A DNA stretch of 64,000 bases, from contig CP126193.1 in NCBI GenBank assembly GCA_030272155.1, positions 1,674,001-1,738,000 on the forward strand, written 5' to 3'. A program made the position numbers and the translations under genes. Below the pieces are notes generated by a model. The model saw nothing but the letters and a program-made list of their open reading frames with translations, was not told where the DNA came from and did not search any database. The DNA is from Tetradesmus obliquus. Its lineage: Eukaryota > Chlorophyta > Chlorophyceae > Sphaeropleales > Scenedesmaceae. This document shows positions 11,266-44,037 of the stretch, in pieces (position 1 is the first letter of the stretch; each line of letters opens with the position of its first letter).

Positions 11266-14200
11266 ATGACGCAGACTGTAGCTGAAGGCGCAGCAGCTGC
11301 TGAGGGCACCGCCCCTGCACCAACTTTGCGAAGCATACTGGAGCCCCTACTTGACATCCCCAGCGAGGAGCGGAAATTTAGCTGCAGGTACAGTCTCACG
11401 GCACATCATGTAGTTGTTTCAAAGCTGCAAATGCGGTGGCATTGGTCAGCGGGTGACGTGATTGGCAGCCTGACAGCAGCAGCAGCAGCAGCAGTAGCAG
11501 CAGCAGCAGCAGCAGCAGCAGCAGCAGCAGCAGCAGCAGCAGCAATGCTGGCGCGCACAGCGCCGGCACAAGAACGCAGCTATTTGACAATTTGCAGAAC
11601 TGCTAGCTACGGTTACTGCTGTTTACAGGCCAGCATGCAACCGAATACGTTGTCAACGGCATCCGCCTGTAAGGGTATCAGCTTGCAGGCTTGGCACGCT
11701 CAGTGCCTTACCACCAGCAGCAGCCCTGGACATGTTTTCAGCTGTTGAGCCGAACCTGGCTGCTGTGACTGCAACTATGTTCCCTGCCATCTGCTTGCAG
11801 GAGCCTGCTCAAGTGCCTGGAGCAGTTAGAGGCTGTGGAGCAGGCACTACTCAACAGGAAGGCGCCTGATGAGGAGACGCTCGCTGACCAGGACAGGTGA
11901 GCAATTGTTTTGTCAAAGGTAGCTGCGTTGCTGTCGTTGGCTGGTTGTGTAGAGACCTATGAGTGTGAGACGCTGGCTGACCAGGACAGGTGTTTTCCTT
12001 TGTTGAGGGTAGCTGCAATGCCGCTGTGGTCCGGTCATGTGTGTAAGAGACCTATGACTGTGAGAATCTGTGCAGTAGCTGCTGATTGCCCTGGCACAGC
12101 GCTAGCACTGAGGCGGAATCGCCTAGTGCTGTGGCTGCACTGTGTGCTTGAGCAGGTGCCAGCAGTTCAGACAGAGGTGGTGAGGGCATTTGGTGCAGTG
12201 TGGTGTGTGGTGTCACCTATACCGGGGATCGATTGCTGCTCAGCATGGCAGAGTCGAGCAGCAGAGCAGCAGCACCTGCAGGAAGGGCTGCTCAGAAAGA
12301 GGCAGATGCAGCCAGCAGACCAGAAACACCTTCAAGGTGGTGTAGCTAGGTGGCGGGGCATATGATGATCCAAACAAAGTGCTTGCAACAGCCTCTGCTG
12401 CAGGCGGCGCCATCCAGCACGCAGTTCACCTGTCGCTTGACTGCCTGTGCGGATAGCCGCTGTCACATGCTGTTGGCTGCTTCGGCGGCGCTCACCTTCT
12501 GTGCACACACACAGGGTGCTGTTGACGTGCGTGTGCGCCCATGCCGCTGAGACGCTGTTGGCTGCTCGTGACATGGCAATCTCACCCCTTGAATGCTGTC
12601 GACGAATGCGCAGGGTGCTGCTGACGAGGCTGTATGGGTACTACCAGGGCATCAGTGGCAGATATGTGTTTGGCTGTTTGTGTCGTGCTCACCCCTTGAA
12701 TGCATGTGTGCTTGCGCAGGGTGCTGCTGAAGTGGCTGTGCTCCTACTGCCAGGGCATCAGCGACACAGTTGCTTTTGGCTGCGCATGCCTTGCCCACCC
12801 CTTGAATGTTCTTGATGCACGCGCAGGGTGCTGCTGACGTGGCTGTGCGCGTACTACCAGGGCATCAGCGGCAGCCAGTCCATCATCCACGGCGACCTGC
12901 TGGAGGCGGAGCTCACAGCCAGCGGCCTGGTGGCGCCCTTTGTGCAGGTGAGTGGGGCAACAAACTGACAATAGCCCACCATCCTGGCAAAACCTGCAAG
13001 TACAAGCCTTGCTGCGCAAGTGACTGGGTTCAGGCCCGGTTGGGTGCAGTGTGTGCATGCTGCAGGTGTTTCAGCGGGTGTTGAACCGCCAGCGGCCTGG
13101 TGGCGCCCTTCGTGCAGGTGCGTGCGGCATGCATGGAACCATAAGCGAAATGACATAGGAGTATGGGGCGTACGCGGCACACTCTGTGGCCATACCTCTG
13201 GAATCTGTCATAATGAGCAACAACAAAAGGCAGCAAAGGAACTCTGCGCAGCCCTGCATTGCAGCGTGGGCACTGCCACAGCAGCTCGGACTGCAGGCGC
13301 ACACGCTGCCGATGTAACGTTGATTGTTTGGTTTGTGACTGTTCGGTGCTGCTCCTGCTGCCTCTGCTGCTGCTGCTGCTGCTGCTGCTGCTGCTGCTGC
13401 TGCTGCTGCTGCTGCAGCCGTCCACGCCGCTGCCTCATGAGGAGGGCCAGGAGCAGCAGGAGGTGCCGGCAGGGGGCGCACGCTTCGGAGGTGCGGCAGC
13501 GCTGCTGCATGCTGACGTGGCATGCATTAGGGTACAGCATGTTGGGGCCCAGGCTAATGTGGGTTAGGGTTTGTGAGCAGCACTGGTTTGCTTTCAGCTG
13601 CTGCATGTTCGCATGGCAACACATCTGGCACGCATTATTGCGGCTGCGCTGCAGGCAAGCCTGCTGCATGTCTGCCCACAATGATGCGCATAGCAGGGCT
13701 TCCCTGCCTTCACTTCTCAGAGCACAACTCCTCTTTGCAACATACTTATCTGTATGATATCATGCTGCTGCGCTGCAGTGCCCACCAATGTCAGCCCTGA
13801 GGTGGTCTGCTCCTCAGTGAGCGAGCTGGTGCGCATGGCGGCTGCCGCGCTGATCAGCCTCTACGTGTACCTCAACTTCAAGCAGGGGCCCAACGACCTG
13901 GCGGCAGGTGCGGCACAGCAAAATCTATGAAATCTATGAAAGTTGATGTCAAAGTGATTGTTGCTTTTAGAGTTGATTGTTTCTGATTGCGACCGTTAAA
14001 TGGTAGGAAGTTTAGAGGAGCAGGCAGTGCTGTGCCCCCTGCTGTTGTACTCCACACGCTGCGCTCTGCAGCCGGCAACCACACGTGGTGTGATTTGTCA
14101 TGTACCTTACACCGATGTTTGCTGTGCGCTTGTCTGCTGTGGCCTTGGGTATATTCCCATAATTGCAGACGAGGTGCTGCTGGTGTACTCCACCATCGCC

Positions 14201-41509: not shown

Positions 41510-44037
41510 GCGGGACTTTTGCGGCGCTTATGGTGTGCCACATGTTCAAAATGACACACAAGCGGTGGATCTTGTGTTGACTATGGTGGCTGCTGGTGGC
41601 GGCACCTGCTGGGGGGCGCTTGCTGCTGGGAAGCATGCAAGGACGCAGCAGTAGCACCTGCACCAGCGCTAGCAGCAGCAGCAGCAGCAGCAGGAGCAGC
41701 AGCACAGTGGACGACGTGGTGGGCAAGGAGCCGCGGAAGCGGACAGGCAGCACGTGGCAGGCAGGCCGCGGTTGCACAGCAACTGAGCAAGGATTGTCTG
41801 TGGGTGCACAGCACTTTGAACACTGTTGTACACTGTGGCCAGCCGCAGACGCCGGTTGCAGCTTCAAAAAGACCGCCTGCGGCTGTGCGTATGAGCCACA
41901 ACACAGCAACAGCAGCAGCAGCAGCAGCAGCGAGGACACCAGCGCGTTAGCACATCTGTTTGCCGCACTCTGAGCACAAGAACCAGGCAGCCTGCTACTT
42001 GCATGCCCGTGTTTGTATCATTGGCCATGCACATTGAGTGTCGTTAACAGTGGCAGTAGACGGTGATAGTTAGGGCTGAACCTCGCCCATGCACAGCCTG
42101 ATGGCGTGCTGGTGTCTGGTGCATATCAGCCAGAATGTGTAGCTTTGCTGCACATAACGTCTTGAAGTTGCCGTGCGTTGTGGAGTTTCCTGGACTGTAG
42201 CTGTGCCTGCAGGCAGCAACAGTTCAACTGTCGGTAATTACGGTAACCACGGGTCATAACAAAAGGTCTGATCACCCACGGCACTTGCTGCAGTTGCGGC
42301 TTGTAACATTTGTGCAGTCACAAGGCAAGTGACGCAAGGCTGGTGTCTACAAATCGGCGAGCTTCGTCTCAAATGATGCTGCAGTCCTGCTGTGATATGC
42401 TGCTCAGCAGAACAGTTCCAGGTGTTCCGTCTGTTGGAAGCCGCAGCCCACAGTCAGGTTGTGGAAGGTGATACAACTGAAGTATGTTTTAACACCTTGC
42501 TGGTGCCATCCAGGGTGTCAGTTTGTCACAGTCACTGTCTTCACTGCTTGAGTCATGGCTTGAGTCACCCAAGTAGTAGTACTACTGGTAGCAGTCAACA
42601 CTGGTTCACTGCTGGCAGCCGTTCCGTCCTATCACACAGATGTGCAGAAAATGTTAGTGCTGCCGCTGAAGTTTTGATGCATGTGGATGGCCACCTTCGG
42701 TTTTACCGCTGTTCATCCGTGCACATGTTAGTCACTAGCGGCGGGTTATGTATTACGGTGGTGCGACACCGTGCTCACAGAATCACACTGAGCAACAGCC
42801 ACATGAATGTTTACCCGTCACCGTTGTCAAGCGAATCTGTGCGATCTGCCTGTCCCGAAGTGCACTCTGTTGGACTTGTGGTTCCTACCCTGCCGGAGCG
42901 AAGGGGCGATATATCGCCTTGTGTGTAACTTGATTTTAAATCATAGTTGATTGGAATATCGTAGCTGGTTTAGAACAGAGTCGGTAAGTGCTATATCAGC
43001 CGTTGTCTGCTCGGGCACGTATCGGTCTCGGAAGCTCATGAGCAAACACGTCAGCAGTAATCTCCAGCACCGTTGCAAAGGCTGATATACCTTATTCTTG
43101 AGTGCAGGTTGACTCGCTGTGCGGTGATCCTCGTCACCAAGGTGGGTGCACTGCCTGAGCAACTGACACGCCCTTGTCTTTTTAAATCGCAAACGTGAGC
43201 GCTGACTAGCTTGAGGCATCACGGTCAAAGTTTTTCACCCATATGGGGATAATTATGGTTTCGGAGCGTGGGTCCTGGACTGCTGGCCTCGAAGCGTTTT
43301 GCCGGTGACCGATCCTGCAGGACGGCTGTGGCATTCACTGATTGTGTCAACCAGCATCATGCTGGTGACTTGATGATCAATCCACAGCTGGATCACTTAG
43401 ATCAGATGCTGCACAACTAGCTAGCTTAAAACAGCAATTGCTGTTTGCGGCCTGCTTTCATTTCTCAGCAGGTCATGCATGTGCACTGCATATGCCACAG
43501 AGTGCCTTTCCTGGCCTGTAGTCACTGCATATGACACAATCAGGCAACCCAACAGTATCCCATCGGTTGTGCTGTTCACAGTGACAAAGTGCCATCCAGT
43601 GCTTAGTTCAGCAGCACAACAGTACACTCATGCATGCACTGGTGCGCACTAGTTTCTCAGTACTACTGCATCCTGAAGGTCACAGTTACCGACAATGCTT
43701 TGCAGGGGCCTGTCCTCGTCCTCCTGTAATTTGCGCACAAAAGAGCTTACATAAGGCTCAAAGCAGGCTTGCCTGCCTCTGCCGTGTAGGACTTCTAACT
43801 TGTACTACAAGTTGAACCTGCAGGGGTCGCGGCCTAACCAGAACACAGCATGAATGGCATGCATACCCCACAGTGCATGTGATGTGCACCAGGGGCGGGG
43901 TTGCAGCTCACCAGGTGCCGTCATGTGCTTGTTGCATGCGAGAGCAGCGCTCACGCACTGATCACCCAACCATGCACTGACCAAGCAATGCTTCCATGTC
44001 TGCTGCCACGCCAGCTGTGTTCGTGGTGATGTGCGTC
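41510..44037. other. 2.5-kb intergenic region with an exon-end relic
   Basis: Begins with the T/G-rich 3' flank of the thioredoxin gene, including a CAG-rich patch (41671-41703 and 41910-41931). Between 42.0 and 43.9 kb there are open frames on both strands (e.g. 42392-42928) with no recognisable domain or splice structure. No gene is claimed. Confidence 0.35.
41707..41790 (+). repeat. Diverged copy of the thioredoxin gene's last coding bases
   Basis: gtggacgacgtggtgggcaa followed by ggagccgcggaag parallels 41443-41478 of the coding exon, about 265 bp upstream. The copy then degrades but still ends in an ACTGAG-like stop context. It sits after the true stop codon. Confidence 0.8.

Follow-up and report, generated by a model that had tools for sequence, protein, structure and literature searches.

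Short, local, direct duplications that include the edges of exons were analysed in the green alga Tetradesmus obliquus, in a 64-kb stretch of its 104.66-Mb, 17-contig genome (C3:1674001-1738000, referred to here as the window) and in further stretches sampled from it. Among the predicted genes of the window are a thioredoxin gene (PF00085, E 1.6e-12) and a gene with EF-hand-like exons, the EF-hand hits of which lie below the Pfam cut-off (best E 8.5e-05 and 0.0078); no Pfam hit was obtained for the tested piece of a small gene ending at 33329, nor for the last exon of the first gene. The original prediction had named eight arrays in this region (at 11874, 12515, 13089, 17174, 18169, 33497, 40879, and 41707), with a period of 93-242 bp and copies spanning either the end of an exon with its splice junction or a stop codon. 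Self-BLAST of the window recovered all eight of them and added a ninth at 40326-40518. The lower end of the period was reproduced, while the upper end has to be extended, as the measured range is 93-263. Every array reaches a splice site (donor or acceptor), a stop codon or, in the case of the ninth, a predicted start, contacts which were taken from predicted gene models and were listed or judged by eye. The arrays are the following:

11874..12065, + strand: tandem copies over the donor end of exon 11801-11896; offset 93, 75% identity
12554..12874, + strand: tandem copies over the acceptor end of exon 12827-12947, the exon being the last copy; offset about 112, 76-80% identity
12915..13129, + strand: 45-bp copy of the donor end of exon 12827-12947, 170 bp downstream (12915/13085); 91% identity, spacer without detectable homology
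17175..17869, + strand: three copies (offsets 231-241) of an EF-hand-like exon end with its donor, from self-BLAST and gene models
18168..18390, + strand: 59-62 bp copy of the donor end of exon 18043-18216 (18168/18329); offset 161, 92% identity
33281..33553, + strand: copy of the last 49 coding bases and the stop codon (33281/33496); offset 215, 93% identity
40326..40518, + strand: copy that covers the beginning of the thioredoxin gene's first predicted exon (40326/40438); offset 112, 77% identity
40872..41422, + strand: three copies of the acceptor and 84 coding bases of a thioredoxin exon, the exon being the last copy; offset 231, 89% identity
41444..41788, + strand: decayed copy of the C-terminal codons and stop codon of the thioredoxin gene (41444/41707); offset 263, 73% identity

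Beyond the window, 20 stretches of 10 kb were sampled: each of the 17 contigs contributed one from position 1 Mb, and three further ones came from position 3 Mb. L017, which contains long satellite arrays, and L018, which consists of a 4.28-kb repeat unit, were set aside from the counts, and the array counts reported below refer to the resulting small sample of one genome, comprising 244 kb (the window and 18 of the 20 stretches), with exon edges taken from ab initio gene models. Pairs were searched by self-BLAST after masking of repeats with a period of at most 20, with an offset limit of 600. Local direct pairs are abundant in the masked sample, their offsets beginning near 77 bp and being most frequent at 100-125. 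Following clustering, 82 local direct duplications (arrays) were obtained at 44 bits and 78 at 50 bits, the former corresponding to about 340 per Mb; their offsets are 42-490 bp, at least 79 bp in 81 of the 82. The window contains 1.7 arrays per 10 kb and the 18 sampled stretches 0 to 9, with at least one in 14 of them. Eleven window arrays enter the count of 82, including a repeat inside a gene at 2714 (offset 42) as well as 52871 and 54817, which are parts of a separate repeat block, while the array at 18168, presumably owing to its CTG runs, vanishes upon masking and hence stands outside it. The block itself, at 52871-55625 and outside predicted genes, is a diverged tandem array with units about 640-1405 bp apart and longest matches that are 67-76% alike.

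Chance similarity as a source of the pairs was rejected, as Markov-3 copies of the sequence gave no pair at 50 bits (two replicates) or at 44 bits (one replicate). Six inverted pairs were found, two of them palindromes and four the ends of the L018 repeat unit. Matches between different loci number only 9 in 264 kb and the arrays are therefore not a dispersed repeat. This also bears on the proposal that mobile introns (Introners) or other transposons were the source of the spacers, which we consider highly improbable. Direct repeats of such length are too long to be target-site duplications. Searched against the whole genome, the spacer of an array in L009 matches itself alone, that of L019 its own two tandem copies alone, and that of L007 gives three weak partial matches, so that these three do not form a repeat family. 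Introners are near-identical introns dispersed in many copies; what speaks for them is that green algae are cited among the lineages bearing them (PMC9860276), and rapid intron change is a shared feature. An artefact of the assembly is scarcely credible either: although the arrays are known here from the assembly alone, their copies diverge by up to 29%, they occur in 14 of the 18 sampled stretches, and the conserved coding sequence is intact in both genes that were checked, GCL and EFTUD2. Paralogues with an empty site were searched for at three loci, and the matches listed were either simple repeats or relatives that were short or diverged.

Gene models were obtained with a Viterbi gene finder that was self-trained on the same sequence and that called 61 genes with 365 exons in 264 kb. 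Its donors resemble CAG followed across the junction by GTG(A/C)G, and its acceptors are rich in TGCTGCTGCAG followed across the junction by G. Pfam hits were obtained for all five predicted proteins chosen from the 61, for part of a sixth, and for the thioredoxin. The products of GCL (L006) and EFTUD2 (L019) align along their length to solved structures, and the alignments are interrupted at the exon ends FLSTR and LRN in GCL and at the exon starts VVG and VTA in EFTUD2. These breaks coincide with copies that were called as exons and therefore support the respective exon edges independently of the gene finder. They also bear out the expectation that such copies confuse gene prediction, since our own gene finder called several of them as exons in both genes. 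The opposite concern, that the gene finder invents edges wherever a duplication lies, was dismissed, as planted intronic duplications were re-annotated as edges in just 3 of 300 cases. GCL carries six arrays on six edges, namely four donors, one acceptor, and the stop codon. At L006 3767-4618, about five copies of one glutamate-cysteine ligase exon end, 97% alike, lie within one intron in an array that ends at a donor site. In EFTUD2 (L019 2627-2959), a unit made up of the acceptor, 54 coding bases, and a 78-bp spacer recurs unchanged, and the thioredoxin array of the window is built in the same way.

Across the sample, 60 of the 82 arrays include an exon edge, compared to 29.1 +/- 3.9 expected by random shift, when edges are classified on exons of good coding score (251 of 330); the excess of copies at exon edges that had been proposed for the whole genome thus holds in the 244 kb. 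Only 11 arrays are entirely non-coding (36.6 +/- 4.4 expected), 8 are internal to exons (7.2 expected), and 3 have both copies in exons (9.1 expected). The bias is also seen among the youngest duplications, with 13 of the 15 arrays of at least 95% identity at edges (5.7 expected). Pairs of 95-100% identity cover 5.1% of the first 20 exon bases and 0.3% of deep exon, 4.6% of the first 20 intron bases and 0.5% of deep intron, figures which count edges that were called inside copies too, and it is in this identity class that intron edge and deep intron differ most. Counted likewise with edges called in copies, 58 of 278 predicted donors and 47 of 278 predicted acceptors lie inside a local copy. 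Short tandem repeats of 15-30 bp, in a survey covering periods of up to 76, show no such bias (6 of 62 at edges, 5.7 expected) and conform to minisatellite or slippage repeats, which the long, edge-biased class does not resemble. Tandem units of 30-76 bp are few (4 in 244 kb) between the abundant short ones and the exon-edge class, which starts at 79 bp. This lower limit lies near the 5th percentile of predicted intron lengths, which is 79 bp.

An excess of this kind could be produced by survival rather than by birth. According to this explanation, which we consider quite unlikely, duplications arise evenly, those internal to exons are purged by selection, intronic pairs fade faster because both copies drift, and exon-edge pairs remain. 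It is in line with the depletion of pairs with both copies in exons (3 versus 9.1) and with the lower detection of simulated non-coding pairs (0.37 versus 0.53). However, a forward simulation that models both effects, with uniform duplication, selection against insertion into exons, decay, masking, and BLAST detection, fails by a wide margin to reproduce the data: from 2600 retained events 1091 were detected, of which 306 were edge, 682 non-coding, and 103 internal pairs, so that about 28% edge and about 62% non-coding pairs are predicted where 73% edge pairs are seen, the simulation having used all predicted exons and the observed count strong exons. Two further points argue against it, namely that the edge contrast peaks among 95-100% identical pairs and that short tandem repeats of the same sequence are unbiased. 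Moreover, down-weighting non-coding pairs two- or threefold leaves the edge over non-coding excess significant for all arrays (P 2e-05 and 0.005, respectively). The exon-edge excess of local duplications therefore holds in the sample beyond our own model of chance, selection, and decay, and we infer from it an unusual mutational origin linked to gene structure rather than unequal survival. Microhomology at splice motifs was rejected as a full explanation: with 1448 occurrences of GCAG inside unmasked introns compared to 267 at acceptors, other sources should dominate.

The arrays occur in two forms. By an alignment gap of 25 bp, 22 are tandem, with units spanning the exon edge, and 60 are spaced; because the split depends on this gap, some of the spaced arrays are decayed tandem ones, for instance window 17175, the spacers of which are partly alike, and L014 8480-9224. 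The copies are 37-339 bp long (median 67.5), and the median spacer of the 60 arrays spaced by at least 25 bp is 77. Spaced copies of at least 88% identity are usually 44-113 bp long, mostly coding with about 5 bp of flank, and usually lie 47-168 bp from the exon, across sequence that is mostly unrelated. Of the spaced pairs of this identity, 30 hold coding sequence, with a median coding fraction of 0.92 and a median non-coding overhang of 5 bp, and 2 are fully non-coding, whereas 66% of uniformly drawn sources would be. In 46 of 57 pairs the spacer resembles neither flank (z at most 4). At 8-68 bp beyond the edge, homology is undetectable (z <2.5) in 30 of 49 edge pairs, the exon sides of which are 82-100% identical. 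In a power trial, which used 1-base indels only, a 60-bp flank diverged by 20-30% was detected in 90-100% of trials. The flank test and this trial speak against the spaced copies being simply decayed tandem arrays, with the qualification that real introns may suffer larger indels.

By a further explanation, the duplications are old and a constrained functional exon keeps overwriting its copies by gene conversion while the flanks drift beyond recognition. We hold this to be unlikely, yet worth serious attention. Homology indeed often ends near the end of constraint (splice consensus or stop codon), and exon identity is about 0.9 irrespective of whether the flanks align. In three arrays chosen after the output was seen, two extra copies differ less in their exon parts than in their intron parts (62/392 versus 149/444 in L013, 9/288 versus 21/226 in L006, and 10/116 versus 43/166 in L010). 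Taken over all 25 multi-copy arrays (70 pairs), though, the ratio of exon to intron differences is 0.69, a value that rests on loose copy detection with noise mixed in and that lies within the 0.65-1 expected for serial birth of copies. Conversion tracts should, moreover, bring flanks along, and in L019 the outermost copy already stops 5 bp above the acceptor despite full identity of copies and spacers.

Concerning their fate, the extra copies resemble neutral sequence in decay for the most part, although the third-position excess and some multi-copy arrays hint at something more. By codon position, the mismatches (55/1179, 57/1184, and 158/1185 for positions 1, 2, and 3) roughly fit one constrained exon and one drifting copy, GT is retained in 23 of 30 copies and AG in 23 of 27, roughly what by our own estimate drift at the observed divergence would leave, and the offsets of the 82 arrays show no preference for multiples of three (25, 35, and 22 for remainders 0, 1, and 2); thus, the copies look mostly like neutral debris. 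That they are alternative exon ends or decoy exons maintained by selection is an explanation to which we give little credence. The third-position excess over the simple neutral expectation and the frequent retention of splice dinucleotides favour it, whereas the unframed offsets and the GT and AG counts do not; furthermore, of 50 indels within aligned pairs, counted over coding and non-coding columns alike, 43 have lengths not divisible by three, and constant inclusion of the copies would interrupt GCL and EFTUD2. On the same two grounds, unframed offsets and drift-level splice sites, the suggestion that the copies supply raw material for alternative exons finds no support.

Our tentative reading, which we place a little below an even chance, is that breaks or stalled synthesis would arise preferentially at exon edges and would be repaired by re-copying of the adjacent exon end, either by fill-in of staggered ends with filler or by local same-strand template switching. 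Copies landing within exons would be eliminated by selection, and copies in introns, which would be spliced out, or in 3' flanks, which would be untranslated, would decay. Staggered-break fill-in or same-strand template switching fits because the copies are direct and lie beside an unrelated spacer, and because tandem forms occur as well, and processes of either kind are known (PMC2671141, PMC8355091); as the mechanism here, repair of breaks or template switching directed to exon edges is nevertheless unproven. Several results weigh against this reading. The mutational events are deduced from one genome and none was observed directly. For the 15 youngest arrays alone, the two- and threefold down-weighting of non-coding pairs gives P 0.05 and 0.18, so that under the latter the excess is not significant, as unequal survival would have it. 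The edge to exon-internal ratio is weakly skewed (60:8, null 4.0:1, P=0.06; among spaced copies of at least 90% identity 18:3, null 1.7:1, P=0.02), and array density per stretch is not significantly correlated with splice-edge density (Spearman 0.43, P 0.07). The third-position excess of about 2.8 to 1 is above the approximately 1.8 to 1 that we estimate for one neutral copy, assuming one drifting copy and one exon that is free at third positions only, with far more expected if both copies were constrained. Some arrays hint at homogenisation, as two extra copies are more alike in their exon-like parts than in their intron parts. Finally, the matches in five stop-codon spaced pairs end 1, 2, 4, 10, and 18 bp past the stop, and a DNA process has no obvious reason for stopping near a stop codon; in a sixth (L014, offset 439), which resembles an old tandem duplication, the match continues for 70 bp.

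A variant, unlikely though a real possibility in our view, couples the duplication to expression: exon-intron borders, and perhaps stop codons, may preferentially be broken or re-copied while the gene is transcribed and spliced, for instance where RNA-DNA hybrids end or with nascent RNA as template. Exon ends would thereby be inserted into the flanking introns, and introns would therefore grow from their edges. Such a process would account for donors and acceptors, and less easily for stop codons.

The arrays can be compared to known systems. Repair-mediated duplications and short local "doublets" of vertebrates were ascribed to the repair of breaks, involving microhomology, deletion, and filler (PMC2671141). 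As in the alga, they are short, local, and often spaced, and some hold exons or splice sites. Their donors, however, seldom touch exons (8 of 824 human donors involve part of or a whole exon and 16 more UTR; PMC2671141, Table 2), and one case is inverted, whereas about three quarters of the algal arrays touch a coding edge and the local copies found are direct. Pace et al. define a repair-mediated duplication as lying within 5 kb of its source, with a copy of at least 50 bp and more than 50 bp apart; the algal offsets, confined to 42-490 by the design of the search, and the median copy and spacer given above can be set against these values. Tandem genomic duplication of exon segments has been connected with intron gain (PMC4974935; PMC3443670). 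In these reports, too, the duplication crosses an exon-intron boundary, and the potato RdRp case shares the geometry, but they describe single cases, while the density in the alga is far higher. Of 78 arrays, one (L011 6413-7057, with tiny, doubtful predicted exons) has donors and acceptors at the same register, within 6 bp, of two copies as in AGGT-type intron gain, and none of the other 77 does; there are therefore no clear new introns. Small tandem duplications arise by fill-in of staggered breaks (PMC8355091), which likewise form direct repeats at break ends; the abstract mentions no exon-edge preference, and the algal copies have long spacers. Tandem mutually exclusive exons are whole-exon, frame-compatible duplications, whereas the algal copies are mostly partial exons at unframed offsets. 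No report of exon-edge-targeted local duplication in a green alga was found among titles and abstract openings in a partial coverage of the literature, which is weak evidence of novelty.

The sampled DNA has other features besides. In L018 (1-10000), a 4282-bp unit is repeated head to tail with 100% identity and bears 29-bp inverted repeats, and it looks like a repeated mobile element or satellite. L017 (1-6013) contains satellite-like arrays of about 274 and 351 bp, the former of which the gene finder called as a repetitive cysteine-rich protein, and L005 (1-1135) several copies of a 191-bp unit, up to 99% alike, outside predicted genes. A predicted gene on the minus strand of the window (21267-31327) fuses what we take from its sequence to be a cyclic-nucleotide-binding protein and a pyruvate formate-lyase, and the predicted products at window 44038-52494 and of L017 gene 2 in part presumably resemble hAT-family transposases.

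A genome in which about one-sixth to one-fifth of the predicted donors and acceptors lie in local copies would be a good place for watching exon-edge duplication. It could be used for testing intron growth and intron gain and for asking whether transcription or splicing directs DNA repair, and it touches on the wider questions of the origin of intron sequence and the clustering of mutations. Gene models of such genomes will carry spurious repeated exons.

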